DNA from: Mytilus galloprovincialis | Lineage: Eukaryota; Mollusca; Bivalvia; Mytilida; Mytilidae | Length of the DNA: 64,000 bases | Direction: 5' to 3' | Assembly: GCF_965363235.1 (NCBI RefSeq) | Contig: NC_134848.1 | Coordinates: forward strand, 66,902,681 to 66,966,680 | In this document: positions 908 through 54,619 of the stretch, one piece after another | How the letters are laid out: every line of letters starts with the position of its first letter | How positions within the stretch are numbered: position 1 is the stretch's first letter | Made by a program: the position numbers and the translations under genes | The notes under the pieces: model-generated | Seen by the model: the letters and a program-made list of their open reading frames with translations, nothing else | The model's database searches: none | Told to the model about the DNA's origin: nothing

Positions 908-3900
908 TTAGGTAGAATTTTTTCTAGCTACGAAGCCTTTCGAGTCAGACCAAACCATTTCAATTGGATTGAGCTCACAATGGTAAGGGGGTAATCGTAA
1001 AACCACATGGCAATGAGCTTTTGCAAGTTCGTCTATCACATATTTTTTCTGAGGCTTGTGCTGATTTACCAAATCAAGCAGCCCAGTCTTTTCCATTCTG
1101 GGGTCATAATGAACATTGTTCTTATCCAACCATGCCGAGATACCTGGTTTATTGGCACCTGTAGAAGGTGCCCTCGACTCAGGATCTAAGTGGCTGTGAT
1201 ATGGAGCATTGTCCATTACAACTACAGACTGGGGAGATAGTCTAGGGATGAGCGTGTCTCTGAACCATTCTGTGAAGTGTTCACTATTCATTTCATCATG
1301 ATAATCCGAGCTGTTGGTTTTCGACTCAAAGATCAGGCCAACACCAGGGATGAGGCCGTGTTGAGAAGATCCAGCATCTAGGATTATCAAACGAGTGCCT
1401 TTACCAGATGGTAAAGAACGCCCGCTGCCCGCACAGTGTGGCTCAAAGACTGACATGGATGTGCTAGGTTCATCCAGCCAGTCACCCCTGACTACAATAT
1501 GTACATGATTGGAATTCAACCAAGTCTCATCTAAATACACAATATGACGCTCTTGCTGCCTGTACTTACGTATCTGACGCAGATAATGATGACGAAGAGC
1601 AACAACATTGGTATAACATTAAATATAGACTTTGCTTTACATTCGGAATATTTATTGAAATAGAAATTTGTTGAAACTTTGGAAACAATTTTTATGTCAT
1701 TCCTTTTATTATTTTAGAAATACTGTTGATTTATCCATTTTTTGTTGGTACCAGTTTTCCAGGATTGAGAAAAGTTATGTTCCATTTACATGTACTGTTG
1801 TACATTAAACCTTTAAGTTCAAGGTTTACATCAAATAATGAAAAAAATCCTAGGAAAGTTGGACTTTGCAAATTCTAAGGAATCCAAAGTTCTTATTACT
1901 TAAAAATGTTAATTTTGATATATATATTTACCGAAAACCCAGTGACTTCACTGTTCTCACTACTGTTGACAAGGATGCAGTAATGTCTTTCTCTTTCATG
2001 ACTTCATGAAGACGGGGCATGGACACCACTTCTTTCTTCCTATACATATCATATATGGTTCTCTTCACTACATTCCGGTTAAAGTCGTCCAGCTTCCAAG
2101 GCTTTGGACCAGGCTTCTGTACTGATGACTTGTGCAATTCCTTAACTGCATCCTGCACTGGATCCAAAGCCTCGATCTTCCTCTTTAAAGTACTGAGGCT
2201 TATTCCTGAAAATAGAGAGAAATTTTTTCAGAAATATAAACATTCATTTGTTTTGTGTTAAGTGTGTACACTTTAATAATCAACCAAATATGAGATAATG
2301 AGAGTATTAATCTTTTCAGGAGATTTTATAATTGTATATAATGAACACATTTTCTAGTACATTTTTTATTGTAAAGTACTGGTTTGTGTAAAGCTGTGAG
2401 TGTCACTGTATTGTTTTATTGATTTTTTTTAAGTTATGCATGTGTAAATAATTTTGATTGAATGTGATGACGTAAATGTTCTTCTGTTTTTAATGTTTCC
2501 TGAGATAATTTCAAATCTTATTTTCATGAAACTTTGGAAAATCTTTTATATATATATTAAAACGGGCTCCTTTTTTTAATTTAAAAATTCAAGATCTTAC
2601 TATTCTGAGTTATTGTATTTTATAAATTAAGAATAGGAGGATTTCAAGTTTTATAACTATAACTCATAAAAAACAGTCAGTGACTAAAGTTAAATTTTCA
2701 GACAATGAACAACAAATTGCATTAAGCAGTTTTCATGTAAGTCAAGAATTCCGATTTGCCAGTGTCTTTACCATAAATATTTACACTACCTGTTGCCTTC
2801 ACCATGCGGGACCAAGGATCACTCAAACACCATGGCTTTCCAATCTTCTTTTCCATAGTGAAAAATTTAAACATTTTTTCAAGGAGGTGTGAAACCTGTA
2901 AAAATCAATGGCAAATATAATTTTTAATTTGGACAATTTCTGTTGTTATAAAGCTTTCTGAATTGAGTGTTTTTCAATAAATTATATGAAAGTATATGGA
3001 AGTGTACAGTTTATATTTTCATGATAATTACTTAATTGTTCATGCTTGTTGTTAGATTGCTGGCTTAATAACATTTATCCTATACCACAAATTTATATGA
3101 AATATGTAGTATAATTTTTAAACTACCTTGTATCTGATGTGGATATCTTAATATTATATATGTTGTTATTATTATTGATGTCATCAGAGCTGAAGTTGTG
3201 ACAATACATGTAAATCTGACATAAAATTAATTTTCCATTCCATTATATTTCTATTCAATAAATTCATAACAGTTTTGAATCAATTTTGTAGCATTTACTT
3301 GTTTGTTATTATTCTGGTGATGCTTTACTTAAGACAATTTATAATTGTTGCATGCATTAGAAAATTTAGCATTGAAAAATGTTAATATTGTAACCAACAA
3401 TTTGACCAATTAATGGGAGATAAATCTATTTCTTGTAGGGATTATCTCCCTTAGTACACAATTCCTTGAAGGAATTCTGTTTATATAAATTGAATTTGAG
3501 TGCACAATGGATGGAATAATTTGTCAAGACACATTTGCATAACTGTTTTTGAATTTTAGGACAGTGAGTTTTTATTTCTAAAAATAAAATCTGGGCAGAC
3601 ACATATTTCTAGCATTAAAAATCCATTGTTACATAATTATCTTGTATTTTTAGTCTGATGTTAGTAATTTATTTTCCCTGACTCACTTTCCTATGAATTC
3701 AAGTCCATCATTAATTTTCCTAGATAAAAGCATCCATGTCCTTTTTTATAGGAAAAAAATAATAATGATTCAAATCATTTAGTACATATATACAATTGAA
3801 ACTTTAATGTTATGGTTTAATATTGAATAAGAGTTGTGTATTTATAATTTTCTTGAAATGGATGTCCTAGAAAATTTTATCAATGTCAATTATATTCTTA

Positions 3901-19525: not shown

Positions 19526-19714
19526 ATGAAGTTTGATCTGATTCCTTTCACGGGTTTGGCTATACTTTGTTTAACCTTTTTGATTACAGCTCTTCACCTT
19601 TTATTTAAGCTTTGTATTTCAAATATTTTGGCCACGAGCATCACTGAAGAGACATGTACTGTCGAAATGTGCATCTGGTGCAAGAATATTGGTTTTGTTT
19701 ATGTTATTATTTAT
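19526..19714 (+). repeat. Dispersed repeat carrying an intact-looking hammerhead ribozyme
   Basis: Host repeat of the ribozyme at 19638. It starts near TTTCACGGGTTTGGCTATAC and runs into the repeat at 19715. The open frame across it (67 codons) has no domain and is best seen as a by-product of the repeat. Confidence 0.6.
19638..19681 (+). ncRNA. Type-I hammerhead ribozyme motif (second family, AUC cleavage site)
   Basis: All parts fit the hammerhead consensus. Stem I is GCATCA (19638-19643) with TGGTGC (19676-19681), six pairs including one G-U. The core CTGAAGA (19644-19650) differs from CUGAUGA only at the seventh nucleotide, which is free to vary. Stem II is GACA/TGTC with a five-base loop (19651-19663), then GAA (19664-19666). 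Stem III is ATGT/GCAT with no loop (19667-19674), and C at 19675 completes the AUC triplet. A stem III this short is typical of PLE and retrozyme hammerheads, which usually work as dimers. Activity is predicted, not shown. Confidence 0.8.
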
Positions 19715-20005
19715 CCTGTCCAGTACTAGAGAAACAAATGTGCATATAGCTTCTTTGTATATAAGGAAATAACCATCACTTGAAATTAATCAATCCAAGT
19801 TCCACTTCTTTTAACCTATGTAACAGCTGCAGTAACCATGTAACTACAACTAAAAAATAATCGGTCTTAAACAACACAAGATATATGCTTATGACCATAT
19901 GTCCTGCAATGGATAATTTATCTACAGCTGTCAAGTTCAGGGGAAGTTTTTTCGAAATATTGTCTTATGCAACCGGATGTGCCGTACAATTATTAAGTGG
20001 TATAA
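19715..20005 (+). repeat. Dispersed repeat (copy 1 of 2)
   Basis: Matches 59883-60216 in the same orientation: TATCCTGTCCAGTACTA, GAAATAACCATCA, AACCATGTAAC, GTCAA.TTCA.GGGAA and GCAACCGGATGTG. No coding potential. It follows the hammerhead repeat directly, so the two may be parts of one element. Confidence 0.8.
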
Positions 20006-20436: not shown

Positions 20437-21040
20437 GATCAAAATCTTGAGTCAGTCAGCAGTGTAAAATATCTAGGCTGTACATTTACATCCGAACTCA
20501 GATGGAATGACCACGTAAATAACTAATGCAATAAGGCAAATCGAACAATTGGTTTCATAAAAAGAAATTTGAATATAGGATCAATTACAGTGAAGGAGAA
20601 TGCCTATAAAACATTGGTACGTCCAATTGTAGAATATGCCAGTCCAGTATGTGATCCATACCTTAAGACAGAGACTGACAGACTTGAGATGGTACAAAGA
20701 ATAGGAGTTTGCTACATATCTAACAAACATCATAACCACTCCAGCGTTAACGTAATGCTACAACATCTGGAATGGACATCCCTAGAACAAAGAAAGAAAA
20801 AAGCGAGACTCACAATGATATACAAAATAGAAAACAACAAAGTGGCCATGTCAAAGGAAGTTCGTCTAATACCACAGAAACATGCATGATAAATCCTTCC
20901 AATTACCATTCGCATCCTGATATTACCGAAAACACTCATTCTTCCCAAGAACCATCCGGGATTGGAACGCTCATCCCTATAGGGTCGTATCAGCACCGTC
21001 AGTCGAGGCCTTTAAAGCCTCGATGACAAAGCTGAATTAA
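20437..21040 (+). mobile_element. Non-LTR (LINE) retrotransposon, 3' end of the reverse-transcriptase protein
   Basis: The translation shows the C-terminal part of a Jockey/I/CR1-type LINE polyprotein: SVKYLGCTFTSELRWNDHVN, KANRTIGFIKRNLNIGS, AYKTLVRPIVEYASPV, LEMVQRIGVCYISNKH, LEWTSLEQRKKKARLTMIY and, in a shifted frame, FFPRTIRDWN and SAPSVEAFKASM. A stop interrupts it at about 20524-20526 and the frame shifts near 20880, so it is a dead 5'-truncated copy. The sequence after the final TAA is G-rich (GGGGGAGGGGG). No target duplication was identified. The exact clade is uncertain. Confidence 0.85.
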
Positions 21041-21627
21041 ATTTTGGGGGAGGGGGTGGTCGAATATGTGCAACAAACCATGGCAGTATAATTAGTCCGT
21101 TGATTGTGGCCATGATCTGGCAGAAGAAGCAGATAGAAAAAAAATAAACATCACTGAATATTTTTCATACGTTTTATATTAAATTATCATCAGTTTCTAG
21201 ACATATAAAGGCTTATAAAAGCACATTTATAGTTATTTCATCTTCTGTGTCTCATACACAAATTTAATCCAAAAAAAAAAAACATTTTGAAGCCACTGTA
21301 ATGTCGAAGCTTGTAGGATCTAAAACAAAATTAAAAAATCCGCCAAACTTATCTACATGTTATCTTTATTATGCTCGTTTCACGTATCATTTTCAATTAT
21401 AAAACAAAAACATCACAAAATTAGATAAATATTTGGGCTAGCTATATGAATAATAACATTTTTTTCCCTTTAGTTATTATTTTCTTTGCTATTAATTTGC
21501 ACTGTTAACGTTCATTTTGTATAATGTACAGTTGCCAAATCTTGAGTAAACTGCTTCACTATATACAAATATAGCTGAGTTTTATGAAGAATTACAGCTG
21601 GATAAATATTCTTGAGAAGTAGTTATA
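21040..21627. other. Gene-free AT-rich stretch
   Basis: Short poly-A and poly-T runs only; no supported feature. Confidence 0.35.
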
Positions 21628-22118
21628 AAAGGTACCAGGATTATAACTTAATACGCCAGACGCGCGTTGTGTCTACATAAGACTCATCAGCGACGCTCAT
21701 ATTAAAACATTTGAAAAGCCAAATAAATGCAAACTTGAAGAGCATTGTGGAACAAAAATTCCAATAAATTGGGCCAAATACGGCTAAGGTAATCTACTCC
21801 TAAGAAACGAAAATCCTTAGTTTATCGAAAAATACAAAGTTTTGTAACAGGAAATTTATAAAAATGACCATATACTTGATATTCATGTCAACACTGAAGT
21901 GTTGACTACTGAACTGGTGATACCCTCGGGGACGAAACGTCTACAATCAGTGACATCGACCCAGTGGTGTAAAACAGTTATCAACGGTATCAGGATTATA
22001 ATTTAAGACTCATCAGTGACACTCCTATCAAAACAGTTAAAAAGCCAAAAAAGTACAAATTTGAAGAGCATTAGGGACCCAAAATTCCAAAAAGTTGTGG
22101 CAAATACGAAGGAGAATG
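21628..22118 (-). repeat. Hammerhead-bearing repeat, tandem dimer (retrozyme-like), unit ~355 bp
   Basis: Unit 1 begins GGTACCAGGATTATAA (21631) and unit 2 begins GGTATCAGGATTATAA (21986), 355 bp later. Unit 2 is truncated after about 130 bp and has lost part of its ribozyme. Both share GACTCATCAG.GAC, TTGAAGAGCATT and CAAATACG. Unit 1 ends in a hairpin-bearing region (21888-21907) and GGTGATACCCTCGGGGAC. The ribozyme is on the minus strand, so that should be the transcribed sense. No protein coding. Confidence 0.78.
21653..21696 (-). ncRNA. Hammerhead ribozyme motif, first family (core altered)
   Basis: On the minus strand: stem I GCGTCG/TGGCGT, core CTGATGA, stem II GTCT/AGAC, stem III ACGC/GCGT and cleavage triplet GUC. 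The conserved GAA after stem II reads ACA, which should abolish or strongly reduce cleavage. Confidence 0.65.
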
Positions 22119-22663
22119 ACAAGTTGAACACATCTTCTTCATATGTTTAAATAAAACAGTCATGTGGTGAACTGGGTTTTTGTTAACAATCGATTCCATT
22201 ATTTTTATATTATTTTTTTTTTATTATATCTATGAAAAATAATACTAATGCAATTTTTAAATTTGTAGTTACTACATTTATCTCTGTATCCCTGTTACAT
22301 TAAGGGATGTTTTTTAGAAACTAATCTAGTATTATAAAGTTATTCAATATTGCAAAAAGCAGCTAGACGTTATCATGATTATCATCTATTCAAAACAATA
22401 AAATAAGGACACAAAGGACGAATATTTGACAAACAAAGCAAATATCTTAACTGTTTTTCAAATTAATTGTTGTGTAATGTGTATGAACTATCATAACACG
22501 CACATGTTGATTGTTTTCCACAAACAATAATAACTAATTCATGGCTCTCAATACACAATATTTTATTGTAATATTTTATTTAAAAGGAACGTAAATATTT
22601 GTTATTCTTCTTATATCCTATTAAATAAACTCATCATAGATACCAGGACTTAATTTTGTATAT

Positions 22664-22707
22664 ACGCCAGACGCGTGTTTCGTCTACAAAACACGCATCA
22701 GTGACGC
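22664..22707 (-). ncRNA. Hammerhead ribozyme motif, first family (degenerate unit)
   Basis: Stem I GCGTCA/TGGCGT is intact. The core reads CTGATGC instead of CTGATGA, and stem II pairing is weakened. The GAA and GUC triplets are present. Probably inactive, but it marks the unit boundary. Confidence 0.65.
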
Positions 22708-23014
22708 TCGCATCCAAAAAAGTTGAAAAGGCCAAACAAAGTACAAAGTTGAAGAGCATTGAGGACCAAGATTCCTAAAAGTTTTGCCAAATACAGCTAA
22801 GGTAATCTATGCCTGAGGAAGAAAAGCCTTAGTATTTCAAAAAATTCAAAATTGTGTAAACAGTTAGTTTATAAATATAACCATATCAATGATAATTCAT
22901 GTCAGCACAAAAAGTGCTGACTACTGGGCTTGTGATACCATCGGGGAAATAAATCTCCACCAGCAGTGGTATCGAATAAACGCATCATAGATACCAGGAC
23001 TAAGTTTTGTATAT

Positions 23015-23058
23015 ACGCCAGACGCGCGTTTCGTCTACAAAAGACTCATCAGTGACGT
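23015..23058 (-). ncRNA. Type-I hammerhead ribozyme motif, first family, intact-looking
   Basis: Minus strand, in order: stem I 5' ACGTCA (23058-23053), core CTGATGA (23052-23046), stem II GTCT-TTTGT-AGAC (23045-23033), GAA (23032-23030), stem III ACGC/GCGT with no loop (23029-23022), cleavage nucleotide C (23021), stem I 3' TGGCGT (23020-23015). Every position required by the hammerhead consensus is met. Stem I here uses an A-U pair where sister copies have G-U. The predicted cut is 3' of 23021. The near-loopless stem III suggests dimeric activity. Confidence 0.85.
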
Positions 23059-23289
23059 TCGAATCCAAAAAAGTTAAAAAGGTCAAACAAAGTACAAAGT
23101 TGAAGAGCATTGAGCATTGTTGAGGACCAAAATTCCTAAAAGTTTTGCCAGATACAGCTAAGGTAATCTATGCCTGAGGTAGAAAAGCCTTAGAATTTGA
23201 AAAAATTCAAAATTTTGTAAACAGTTAGTTTATAAATATAACCATATCAATGATAATTCATGCAACACAACAAGTGTTGTTTATATTTA

Positions 23290-25250: not shown

Positions 25251-25345
25251 ACGAAAGATACCAGAGGGACAGTCAATAGTTATCAAAGGTACCAGAATTA
25301 TAATTTAGTACGCCAGACGCGCGTGTCGTCTACATCAGACTTACT
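25251..25345 (-). mobile_element. PLE tail fused to a hammerhead-repeat fragment
   Basis: On the minus strand a partial first-family hammerhead (25340-25310: stem II, GAC-ACGC-GCGT-C-TGGCGTA, lacking the CUGAUGA half) runs into AATTCTGGTACCTTTGATAA and then directly into the PLE 3' tail ending GACTGTCCCTCTGGTATCTT. The two repeat families meet here without a gap. Confidence 0.65.
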
Positions 25346-27099: not shown

Positions 27100-29865
27100 C
27101 GGCTGAAAAAAAAGTTAGCAAACATTTACCACTTTAAAAAACTTATTCAGTATATGTTTTTAATTATGTTCTTATAGCTTTTGGTCATATGCTTAGTATA
27201 AACTTGTATATTTTAGGATCGAAACAACAATGCTGCCTGAAAAAAAAACAGATGTCCAACGTTATATTTCGAACAACTGCTTTAACTCTTGTGTGAAAAA
27301 TGACCCTATTTCCTATTATCTGATCTTCGTGAAACTTGGCAGGAACAACGTCATGTGTCAGTTTTTTGTAACATTGAAGCTGTTATTTTCTCAATTTTAT
27401 TTGACTCGGTGGCTCCTTCTTAAGCTGGAATAAGAAAAAAATGTCCAACGACTTTGATCGTTGACTCAAAGACTAAAAATAAATTTTAAAATTAGATATA
27501 GCAGAGAGTGTCTTAAAAAAGTAAATAATAACAGCATCTACCAAAAGTACAAACATTTTTCTAATTGTTCGTGAGTTAAAAAAAAGTAAATTCTATTACA
27601 GTCGTTTTTTTAAAGCGGTAGCCATTTTGTCCAAGTTAATTTTTCATTTGTCAAAGTAATTAATTCGGCTTTTTTACCTGATATTTCAGTAAATAATTTA
27701 TAATCATTAAAATAAAAGTTAGATAAATACAAACTGTCTAGATTCGTTGTTATTAACTACATTCGTATATCGTAAAGGAATAACATGCTACGAAACATTA
27801 CAAAACGGTAGCCATTTTGTCCCAAAGTCTGAAAACTTCGAAAATCATAAGAACGCTTATTTTCGACGTTTTAGTACATTTGATAAATTTATTTCAATTG
27901 AATTTTCCTGATATATAAAACAAACCGTTTGGTAAAATTAGAGAAATATATCTAAGGCTGTAGAAAAAATAATGGTGCAAGTTCACAGACTCGGAACATC
28001 GATTCGACACAGATAAATCGTTTTAGCTTTTAGTAATTGATTCTTGAAAGAGGCAAATGTTTGATTCAGAATTTCTATGATATATATCACCTTTGCAAAG
28101 ACAATTAAGAAACTACGAGACAGTCGTCTATATGTAAAAGGCAAATTTTTCGTTATGTTGTTGAAATGCCACATAATAGCTGATTACCGGTAATAGATCA
28201 TTTAAAGTCGTCCCTTTAGTAAGGTAAGTACGATGTATTCATTAAATTAAAAGTAAAAGTTTTCAAAATGTTTAAGTTTGCAACTTGTCCTGCTACACAT
28301 GTTATTACTGTCGTACTGAATCTTATCCATGTTCTAGCGAAATTGGACCTTAATTTTCTCATTATAAACTTGTATATGAAACGGACATAACTGAAGGACA
28401 AATAGGAAACAGCGACGAAAACTATGTCATTGAATTAATGATATTATGTTAGCCGTTTTTACGGACGATCCAGGAGAAGATTTCTAAACTTATAAATGTA
28501 ACTAGAGGTGACTCGTGGTAATAAGACATCACACAGAGACAGAATCAACCACCATCATTTAAAAAACAATAAAAGTTACAAATTTAAATTATCGACGTCA
28601 ATTTCAAAAAGCATTCTTTTGGTTTACAGCGTGTTGTAGAAACATCTTTCGCAAAGTTATTCAAGTAAACGAAATATAAAATCGAATTGTTCAAATTAAA
28701 TAAGATTTTGTATGCCAGGGATAGATCACCTTAGCTGTTTTTGGAAAACTTCTCGGCATTGGGTTTCTTAATGCTCTTCAACTACGTTATTTATTTGGAA
28801 TCTAAAATGTTTGATCGAAGTCAAAATGTTGGGAAATTTCAAACATTAAGGAAAGAAATAAAGTACCTATACATAAGGGAGATATATCTTTAAATTTTCT
28901 TTGAAATTGGATCTGTACCATATTGGTTTAGGGTATTAGTGACTATTCATATCGTCTATAAAATTAAAAATAATTTTCAAGAAGAGGTTTCAGCTACTAC
29001 GGCAAAGTTGATCTTCGATGAATTTGGGTACATGCAGTTTGTTTGGTGCTTTTTAGTTATCTAGCTCTTGACTTATACGTTTTTTTTAATACTCGGCGTT
29101 TCTGTTGAAGATAAATCCCAATAAAAAAGTTTTAGTTCAATCAGAATAACTGTTTTTCTTCTAAATACTCATTTTACTGTTGTCCTTGTCATATTGCATT
29201 TAATTAAAAAAAAACAAAGTCATTGCATTTTCTGTTTCTAGTCAATAATTATCATCATCCTACTACTGCCGAACCTGCAATAAAAAAAAATCAAACATCA
29301 TCGTCATAACAAGCAGCAATCAAATATTCACATACAAAAGTAAAAGTCCACACTTTAAAGATTCCTTAACTGCAATAAGTGTGTAACGATATTTTCCCAC
29401 TTGAAACAGTTATTTTTTTTTTTATTATAAGCGTGAGGCATGTTGAGATTTGAGAAATATCGTAATAGACGAGTAATAGTGGTGAACTCTGTTTATCTAC
29501 TGACTTTTATCCTTCCTTTTCAAACATTTGCAGAAAGTTGTGTTTATATGTCACGTCATCAGACATCATCAGTATTTTTTATGACGTCATAAGACATCAT
29601 CGTCTTTTTTTACGACGTCACAATCATAAATTCTAAATAAATCAAGATAATTAAACGTCATTATTAATTTTCGACCAATTATTTGCTGAGAACAGATTTT
29701 TCACTAGTGACGAGAAATATTTTTATCACACTGCTCAGGAAATACGAAAATAGCATAAAAAAAAAATTTTTGGAAATCTGCATTGATTCATAAAAAACCA
29801 GTTTTTTTATAAAACACATTGACAACATATACCATAATTTATATTCTACAATGAAGTATTTTTGG
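27100..29865. other. Gene-free stretch downstream of the EGF/Ig gene
   Basis: Searched on the minus strand for further EGF/Ig-gene exons (transmembrane segment or terminal exon in phase 1) without a convincing hit. GCGGTAGCCATTTTGTCC occurs twice (about 27615 and 27806). Otherwise AT-rich and unassigned. Confidence 0.4.
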
Positions 29866-29933
29866 CCTCACTGAAGAGACATGTATCGTCGAAATGCGCA
29901 TCTGTCGCAAGAAAATTGGTACCGTTAATTTTA

Positions 29934-29938: not shown

Positions 29939-51727
<21,789 letters not shown>

Positions 51728-51929
51728 ATCAATTGTTCTCAAATGAATTCTCGGGCTTACATGTATGCGATAAGACTAATATTGTAACGGTCAAGTAAGG
51801 AATTCTTATAGTCAGATAAGGTGACACATGTACATGACATTATGATATCATAACCACTAACACTCTAGCGGAAGTGTTTATACAATCTTTCTAGTTCGAA
51901 AAGTTTTCAAAATTTTTAGAATTTTATAA

Positions 51930-52118
51930 TAGTTATCAATGATAATAAGTAAGTACGCCAGACGCGCGTTCGTTTACATAAGACTCATCAGTGGCGCTCG
52001 AATCAAAATATATTAAAAGCCAAACAATTATGAAGTTGAAGAGCATTGAGAATCCAAAATTCCAAAAAGTATTACCAAATACGGCTAAGGTAATCTATGC
52101 CTGGTATAACAATATTAA
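51930..52118 (-). repeat. Hammerhead-bearing repeat just upstream of the EGF/Ig first exons
   Basis: TAAGTACGCCAGACGCGCGT through TTGAAGAGCATTGAGAATCC and AATACGGCTAAGGTAATCTA. The minus-strand ribozyme (51955-51997) has stem I GCGCCA/TGGCGT and an intact CTGATGA core, but one base is missing between stem II and stem III. The remainder of the unit is lost. Confidence 0.72.
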
Positions 52119-52119
52119 C

Positions 52120-54229
52120 TGTACAAGTTTAATTGCAACAAAAGCCAATTACGACAGTTCATTTGTGAATATCTCTTTAATGATGCACAAGTAACATGTA
52201 TTAGAAAAATCAGAATTCATAAAAACAGTTCTGTGTATTAAGTGTGCACAGTTAAGGCAGTAAAGGAGTCCTCCAATTTTTTTTTAAAATAACAGTTGTA
52301 TCAAATATTTAATGAAATAAGCACATATAAAGTTTAACAAAGAATCCTTTGTATGCATTTTTATTGAAATTAATAAGTTTGTGTGACCTTATAATAATAT
52401 GAGGACTGCTATTTATCAATGAAATATTTTATTTAGATTAAGTTTTTTTGCTGTATAAGTGGCGACAACTATTCATATCATTCGGTTTATACAATTAAAG
52501 AAATGTGTAGTGATTTTCTTTTTTTTTTGTATATAAGTAACAAAAAAAAAAAAAAACGCTGACCAAATTTGCTTTTAATCTAGGAACACATTTTATTGTC
52601 CAAAAGGTCGAAGTGTAAGTCATTCGTTAGAAATCCACATGTTGGTTGACCGTTTTGAATTATCTGTTTTATAGATGACAATATCTATGTTTCAAATAGT
52701 GGAATCACAATTATTTCGATTACAAATTTATTAAAGATGGATTTTGTGTTAACGTTTTAAATCCCAATTTGAAACAGGGCTACTCAAGTTACGCATGTTA
52801 AATAATTGTTTCTCATTTGCTTTTTAAGATTGAAATTTTAGTGTTAAGGGAAGCTTTGTGTTTCCTATTTCTTATTTTGTACGGTAATTGTGTCTAGTTT
52901 TCTTATTTTCTTATTTTGTACGGTAATTGTGTCTAGTTTTCTTATTTTCTTATTTTGTACGGTAATTGAGTCTAGTTTTCTTATTTTCTTAATTTTGTAC
53001 GGTAATTGTGTCTTTGTTTTCGGAAATCAGTATCCCTATGACTGTAGTGACAATTAAAATTAAAATGTGGGACTTCATACAAAAAAAAATATCTTGATTC
53101 TTTTACAAATATATCTCATTTAAACCAAAGGGGGGCTATAAAAAAAAGAGAATGGATTTGGGGAATGTATCAACGAGACAAAAACCCTATTAAAAGGCAG
53201 AAACTATTGAAAGTTATTAGTAAAATGAGTACGAAGCAGTTAACACATGATGTAGTTTTTTGTGTTTTTTTTTTTCATTGTTGGCTTTGTAAAAGGTTAT
53301 GATAGATGTGATACAGCATATTAGATCTTTAAACTTAATCTGTTGTTCCGGTTTTATATATCAGCAAGTCTTGATTTTTATATGTTTTGTAGAGATTTAA
53401 AAAAATAACACTTGTTTTTATGATATTCTTTTTAATTTCATGTAAATCCAATGGTTAAGCCATTTCTAACTGATTTTGTTCCAATTTAGTACTGTTGCAC
53501 AAATGTCGCAAGTAGGACACATTTTTTTTAATAAAACTGCCACATCTGAGTCTGTGCCAAGTAAGATGACTGCAATTTGATATTGGTTTGTGCCTGTTAT
53601 GTTTGTGGTATGTTTACTGTTGATTTGAAAAATAATTAGATCGTTTGGTTTTTTTATTGTTCATATATTTTTATTTGACGTTGTTTAACGTGACATTTGT
53701 GGATACTTTTCAGGTGTTTGCTTTGCTTTTTTTTATAGTTTCAGTATAGTAACTATAGTTGATTAAATCCAAAAATTTCGGACATCTTAAATATAATTGT
53801 CTCATATGCAATTATAGAAATTTTTGCATTGTATATAAGACCGTATTGGGGTCAGTAATTGTTGACCAGTATGTCTTTTATTAATTGCTGATAGGAAAGT
53901 AGTTATACCATAAACATAATATTATTTTATATAATACTTGTCGATCTCTATAATGTTGTTTTTTTTAATTTTATTTTAAGTCGTACCAAATTAATCATTT
54001 ATGTTAGCTAATGGATCTATGTTAACTCCAAACCATACTCATTGCTTTAGCTTTTACATAATGGCTGACAAAAATTGTGAAATTAACTTGTGCAAATGTA
54101 TGACCATTTAATATAACAATTACACTAGACAAGAACATAAGAAACACATTATCAAGGTTATGAATTAATATTGGAAGATATATAAATGTGCGCTATAATA
54201 CATGAATTTGTGTTATCAAAATATATAAT
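52120..54229. other. Gene-free AT-rich stretch with a minisatellite
   Basis: Apart from 52871-53013 and a short repeat fragment at 53135-53200, no feature could be assigned. Confidence 0.4.
52871..53013. repeat. 39-bp minisatellite, about 3.7 copies
   Basis: Unit CTTATTTTGTACGGTAATTG followed by TGTCTAGTTTTCTTATTTT, starting at 52871, 52910, 52949 and 52988. The third copy has GAG for GTG and the fourth has one extra A. Confidence 0.95.
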
Positions 54230-54590
54230 TTAGAAGTATTTTTTGCCAACGATTAATCTTCGTCCTCCTCTTCGTCCTCCACCAAATCCCCCTCCACGTC
54301 CACCACCAAAACCTCCAATAAATCTGCCGCCAAATCCCCCTCCACGTCCACCTCCAAATCCTCCTAAAAATCTGCCGCCGATTCCTCCGGGAAATACTCC
54401 TCCCTTACCAAATCCAATCCACGGTGCTCCTATACCCCATCCATATCCACCACCTGAGCCCCAACCTATTCCTCCTGCTCCCCATCCGGGTCCTCCAAAT
54501 CCGCCCCATCCACCTATTCCTATAAAGGTGGCATTAGTGCACACTGCTGCCAGTAGTAATCCCACGGCAATTGAGAGCTTCATGTTATAC
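54230..54590 (-). CDS. Secreted glycine-rich protein, shell-matrix / shematrin-like
   Basis: 117-codon ORF from ATG (54583) to a stop at 54230. Residues 1-18, MKLSIAVGLLLAAVCTNA, form a clear signal peptide. The mature part is dominated by Gly with Trp, Phe and Arg: GGWGGFGGPGWGAGG first, then a duplicated block GGRFLGGFGGGRGGGFG / GGRFIGGFGGGRGGGFG, then GGRRGGRR and a basic-aromatic C-terminus LIVGKKYF. Gly-rich blocks with a terminal KKY-type motif recall shematrins and other mollusc shell or byssal matrix proteins (family knowledge); secretion into an extracellular matrix is inferred. TTTAG lies 7 nt before the ATG (acceptor at 54591-54592), so a 5' untranslated exon upstream is likely. 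The proline-rich frame on the other strand is its shadow. Confidence 0.82.
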
Positions 54591-54619
54591 CTAAATATAC
54601 ATCATTTTATATAAAGTAT

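Follow-up and report, generated by a model that had tools for sequence, protein, structure and literature searches.

Neither Cervera and de la Pena (2020; PMC7229834), in their main text, nor PMC7761336, in the portions that bear on it, settles how metazoan retrozymes return into the genome and whose enzyme they use. A locus in the mussel Mytilus galloprovincialis raises the same question: a tandem dimer of a hammerhead-bearing repeat at 22624-23283 of a 64-kb window, the whole stretch of DNA analysed here, which is part of contig 11 of a 1.385-Gb assembly in 331 contigs. A sequence-only reading had taken the dimer for a retrozyme-like unit with two hammerheads on the minus strand and cuts 351 bp apart. 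Our analysis indicates that it is probably a decayed Mytilus-type retrozyme insertion without long terminal repeats (LTRs), left by rolling target-primed reverse transcription of an RNA circle. The retrozyme family itself is already known, and the locus is an old copy of a known kind, ordinary for a mussel; our addition is the insertion anatomy, drawn from the window's own genome.

The hammerhead at 23015-23058 is real and not a chance resemblance. The Rfam search that had been proposed as a check gave one gathering-level match in the window, to RF00163 (Hammerhead_1, type I) on the minus strand at these positions (35.7 bits, gathering 34; E 3.1e-5 over 64 kb and 4227 families). A strict hammerhead core pattern occurs at three places in the window, compared to 0.02 expected from shuffles, and a descriptor that includes the stems finds the same three places and has no match in 100 shuffles. 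We base our conclusion on the RF00163 match, the presence of the core positions, the 351-bp repeat and the rarity of the strict pattern. The parts of the dimer are as follows.

22624-23283, minus strand: retrozyme insertion of about 1.8 laps, RNA 3' end at 22624, RNA 5' end at about 23279-23285.
22624-22974, minus strand: unit U1, one lap plus linker (351 bp).
22975-23283, minus strand: unit U2, the second lap, truncated on its RNA 5' side before the linker and carrying a 10-bp insertion.
23015-23058, minus strand: type I hammerhead with an intact core, found by RF00163 and by the strict motif; predicted cut between 23021 and 23020.
22664-22707, minus strand: type I hammerhead remnant with A9 changed to C and a competing hairpin; no cut expected.
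22914-22974, minus strand: linker hairpin region at the junction of both laps.

The laps align in two blocks, 22619-22763 with 22970-23114 at a spacing of 351 bp (92% identity without gaps) and 22759-22901 with 23120-23262 at a spacing of 361 bp (96% without gaps), the latter being wider because of the insertion in U2. Overall, U1 and U2 are 89.7% identical over 311 bp and 94.2% identical over 276 ungapped columns, and the cuts predicted from the sequence (23021/23020 and 22670/22669) do lie 351 bp apart. The element had been placed at 22629-23285; comparison with genomic copies agrees with that end (about 23279-23285) and moves the start to 22624, the fixed start position of genomic arrays. 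The linker is shorter than in other copies, those of the dimer's subfamily being about 14 nt longer. Guanine plus cytosine (GC) content over the dimer is 0.32-0.36 in 300-nt tiles, and no open frame of 110 amino acids or more covers the element. No LTR pair stood out in repeat comparisons of the window, in which primer binding sites were not searched for; no tRNA was found that would make a tRNA-derived head, and exact patterns found no relatives in viral and prokaryote collections.

The evidence on how such elements insert comes from their genomic arrays. A query of 22960-23265 (U2 and a few preceding linker bases) gave 50 matches from 2454 candidates, and a related unit of a second subfamily, at 21.6 kb in the window, gave 127 from 5595, with the best 40 scored each time and 38 loci fetched per subfamily query. 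Unit positions 1-9 contain the start of 37 of the 39 scorable arrays in one subfamily and of 33 of the 35 in the other. Their right ends scatter, and lap numbers are fractional, from 0.3 to about 26, with sub-lap copies present. Counted on lap sequences, the ribozyme cut is followed by 41 nt before the fixed end is reached in subfamily 1, and by 46 nt in subfamily 2. With the ribozyme on the minus strand, the RNA runs from right to left, so that its 3' end is the fixed one and its 5' end the scattered one, the pattern given by target-primed reverse transcription. The 30-nt RNA 3' end of the sister subfamily has 6575 exact copies in the genome (reversed control, 0), and dispersed copies lie on 13 contigs among the matches listed. 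The main text of PMC7229834, supplements apart, was not found to report insertions with a fixed RNA 3' end and scattered 5' ends, and the string "truncat" is absent from it.

In the fetched loci of subfamily 1, a strict descriptor of the intact ribozyme matched 133 places, compared to 142 ribozyme sites; for subfamily 2, the figures were 60 and 78. A separate alignment had served to count the ribozyme sites. A genome search with RF00163 listed 37 matches, 29 of them over the cut-off, with the best 74 of 224,653 candidates scored; the best reached 42.4 bits (locus L086), and 14 control genomes gave none.

From this anatomy, we propose that a reverse transcriptase of another element would enter the RNA circle, or an uncut tandem RNA, at a single site that adjoins the hairpin linker and lies 41-46 nt to the 3' side of the ribozyme cut. 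Primed by cut target DNA, the enzyme would then follow the circle, copying anything from part of a lap to many laps before it stops. A single entry with variable stopping would yield fixed RNA 3' ends, scattered RNA 5' ends and non-integer lap numbers, and the dimer would be a 1.8-lap insertion of this kind, too mutated to free its own unit. A fixed entry site with scattered stops offers a concrete, testable signature of how circles return to DNA. As to the enzyme, PMC7229834 proposes Penelope-like elements as a strong candidate in its main text; PMC7761336 names the same candidate and, where it treats the repeats, states that they carry no motif that would point to the enzyme. A broader form of the proposal, that animal retrozymes generally insert by rolling-circle target-primed reverse transcription from a single entry 41-46 nt past the cut beside a hairpin, leave no target-site duplication, owe their lap number to enzyme run length and have done so recently at at least four loci, seems to us to stand at about an even chance.

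Recent insertion is suggested by one identical 355-bp lap at four loci. They lie on four large contigs (8, 1, 10 and 3), comprise 4.65, 6.34, 1.62 and 25.92 laps and end at unit positions 231, 123, 221 and 327, respectively, with different flanks. The longest, L085 (contig 3, 78842600-78852590), has 25.9 laps, and 24 of its 25 full laps are identical. The laps shared by the four loci appear to mark a recent source, and the suggestion that the dimer might be a fossil of an active family is thus well placed; the main text of PMC7229834, supplements apart, gave no report of identical laps at several loci.

Such homogeneous arrays might also be expected of satellite DNA that carries the ribozyme as a passenger and spreads through DNA circles and unequal crossing-over, and identity is indeed higher within arrays than between them (subfamily 1, 98.8 vs 96.2%; subfamily 2, 94.8 vs 93.6%). 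We nevertheless consider a satellite improbable, given the dispersal of copies over many contigs, the one fixed and one scattered end, the sub-lap copies, the RNA circles published for mussel and the preservation of ribozyme pairs by two-sided changes. The last point comes from six 44-nt ungapped ribozymes of the window, with the copies at 25, 43 and 51 kb left out: 92.4% of cells are paired, compared to at most 44.4% in slid versions, and 4 of 11 pairs have changed on both sides, a number reached by 8 of 500 shuffles. Covariation among six related rows is support, not proof.

The linker beside the entry site might have another role: within the circle, it could shut off the ribozyme as an inbuilt antisense lock. 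Partner strength makes this attractive. Of 25,126 tiles on both strands, from which ten ribozyme places were excluded, none pairs more strongly with the intact U2 core than the linker of the 21.6-kb copy (-26.5 kcal/mol, next -22.4), and none of 2000 shuffled linkers is as strong; in a natural intact lap, the linker is likewise the strongest partner that its unit offers (-22.0, a strength reached by 5 of 2000). The circle folds lend the idea no support, however. In the folded circle of the natural lap, the linker pairs with itself, leaving 0.015 expected linker-ribozyme pairs (0.010 in the 21.6-kb lap), and in the window dimer itself, the linker pairs weakly with the ribozyme (-16.2). We regard a lock as about as improbable as a satellite.

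Where arrays stop bears on the state of the template during the proposed rolling reverse transcription. Among arrays of at least one lap, 8 of 32 and 4 of 22 end within 7 nt of the cut (1.35 and 0.9 expected under a uniform null), and 8 and 1 further ends fall in the neighbouring 87 nt in the two subfamilies; choosing full-lap loci may inflate such ends shortly after a lap. The clustering would suit a linear monomer, cleaved by the ribozyme, on whose own 3' end reverse transcription begins. Yet 5 of the 8 clustered ends (by 4-7 nt) and 3 of the 4 (by 1-4 nt) lie past the cut, which is impossible on a cut template, so the template was whole there. Moreover, a cut monomer would end at the cut, whereas the fixed RNA 3' end lies 41-46 nt beyond it, and many arrays exceed one lap. 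We disfavour the linear monomer and rate it slightly below both the satellite and the lock. As a weaker point, the clustered ends may be read as stops at the ribozyme structure. Helitrons have fixed ends and a constant first base of the right flank, and a Helitron-like DNA rolling circle is very improbable here: tandem laps, the lack of a target-site duplication and a hairpin adjoining the fixed end recall one, but the other end is not fixed, the right flanks of 29 arrays have no constant first base, and strand and ribozyme suit an RNA element.

Several observations weigh against rolling target-primed reverse transcription. Target-primed insertion of long interspersed nuclear elements (LINEs) usually leaves a target-site duplication. 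Across 36 genome arrays, we found no excess of duplications (mean 4.08 vs 3.73; 8 or more in 1 of 36, 0.7% by chance), and across another set of 29 little excess (4.45 vs 3.62; 7 or more in 2 of 29, 2.8% by chance). Some arrays start elsewhere, at unit positions 15, 40, 74, 114, 222, 236 and 269. Lap number could also grow by unequal crossing-over, and it may be wrong in the assembly. The hammerhead is not the preferred fold: in the circle of the natural intact lap, it reaches -67.1 kcal/mol against -74.9 for the best fold, a cost of 7.8, and the isolated intact ribozyme folds best as a competing hairpin (-12.8 kcal/mol, z -0.8). Among the six window ribozymes, further pair types are no more numerous than in shuffles (343 of 500). 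Finally, the bases before the start, T at -2 and A at -1, are frequent (29 of 37 and 28 of 37 in subfamily 2; 17 of 29 and 14 of 29 in subfamily 1) and are the same as the last bases of the linker. Priming on RNA that extends beyond the start would fit this, yet a preference of the enzyme would account for it equally well, and the preference at the target may be that of an endonuclease and not due to priming.

Target-site duplications were also not detected in seven window elements tested singly (p 0.26-0.94). At the 21.6-kb copy, a candidate of 32-33 nt was no better than p of about 0.04, and three other elements tested with it gave nothing; we rejected it. In metazoans, duplications exceed 4 bp if present, according to the main text of PMC7229834.

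Can the dimer still release its unit? The core at 23015-23058 is intact, as had been claimed, and that at 22664-22707 is altered, reading CUGAUGC instead of CUGAUGA. The changed base, A9, is required for hammerhead cutting. Folded in isolation, the 22664-22707 strand forms a long hairpin (-24.7 kcal/mol, z -5.6), although energy folding alone leaves ribozyme activity undecided. With one of the two cores intact, we expect at most one cut and not a free 351-nt RNA, so the earlier suggestion that transcription could release such an RNA is not supported for this locus; judged by its cores, the dimer lacks two active ribozymes flanking a unit. The inner differences of 22664-22707 from the intact ribozyme reinforce its near-perfect hairpin, as template-switch correction of a quasi-palindrome would.

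The label retrozyme-like itself stands. The main text of PMC7229834 describes about 5000 type I hammerheads in M. galloprovincialis, in two related families and usually in 350-390 bp repeats. It reports that the units are expressed, that these ribozymes cleave them and that RNA circles are abundant, a point restated in PMC7761336; in vitro, the hammerheads self-cleave more slowly than those of coral. Compared by description, the dimer resembles these elements in unit size, type I hammerhead, tandem units and low GC, and the ribozyme families are related. It also shares the general features of metazoan non-LTR retrozymes: a canonical hammerhead of type I, repeat units of about 150-450 bp in tandem (351 here, with genomic arrays of up to 25.9 laps), a GC content below 50%, the absence of protein coding and dispersed multicopy occurrence. 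The non-LTR retrozymes of coral (220-240 bp), axolotl (330 and 350) and Nematostella are alike, by description, in having a type I hammerhead in short tandem repeats, and RNA circles have been shown for the first two. Nematostella has 15-bp target-site duplications in the account of PMC4918200, whereas none were detected in the mussel arrays. Plant LTR retrozymes, as described there, are likewise non-autonomous with a ribozyme-bounded RNA circle but have type III hammerheads, LTRs, a primer binding site and 4-bp duplications. Penelope-like elements also carry tandem type I hammerheads but are autonomous, with minimal ribozymes.

The window holds further copies of the family.

21615-22108, minus strand: neighbouring retrozyme of the other subfamily, 1.4 laps; core of lap 1 broken (19.1 bits), cut site of lap 2 deleted.
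36704-37010, minus strand: single-lap copy of the dimer's subfamily, ribozyme core broken (23.8 bits).
43149-43447, minus strand: single-lap copy.
51928-52108, minus strand: copy truncated at its RNA 5' side.
25276-25342, minus strand: RNA 5' truncated copy, RNA 3' end only.
34134-34167, plus strand: RNA 5' truncated copy, RNA 3' end only.

Five more degenerate copies lie near 11.3, 19.6, 28.7, 29.9 and 43.5 kb. Whether the dimer's laps arose in a single event is undecided: U1 and U2 are closer to each other (94.2%) than to the 36.7-kb copy (88.7-88.9%), but another genomic copy is as close to U2 (92%) as U1 is (91%) in the genome search, and the laps of the 21.6-kb copy are 83% alike while its lap 2 and U1 are likewise 83% alike. 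In its linker, the 21.6-kb copy also has a hammerhead-like stretch on the opposite strand (19 of 27 matches, 0 of 1000 shuffles), which we do not count as a ribozyme; a core base is changed, and there is no Rfam hammerhead match.

Two type I hammerheads of a diverged subfamily, both on the plus strand, have intact cores and score below the gathering threshold of 34 (19638-19681, 28.5 bits; 29865-29908, 28.4 bits). In a genome search with 19625-19715 (best 40 of 556 candidates scored), all matches except the window's own end at query positions 84-90 of 91, near the query end. At 43149-43571, there is weak evidence that the single-lap copy is nested in an older copy of opposite orientation: the left flank alone scores 23.6, a value that 13 of 500 random stretches reach, and joining the two sides gives 46.3, which is simply their sum.

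The window has other features as well. An open frame at 908-1618 (minus strand) has a DDE_3 transposase domain (Pfam E 1.4e-14). Two more have no Pfam match: one at 20527-20889 (plus strand) resembles the end of a LINE reverse transcriptase, and one at 54230-54601 (minus strand) is glycine-rich with a signal-like start, perhaps a secreted structural protein. Positions 52861-53021 hold a tandem repeat of 39 bp in 4.1 copies with 94% matches.
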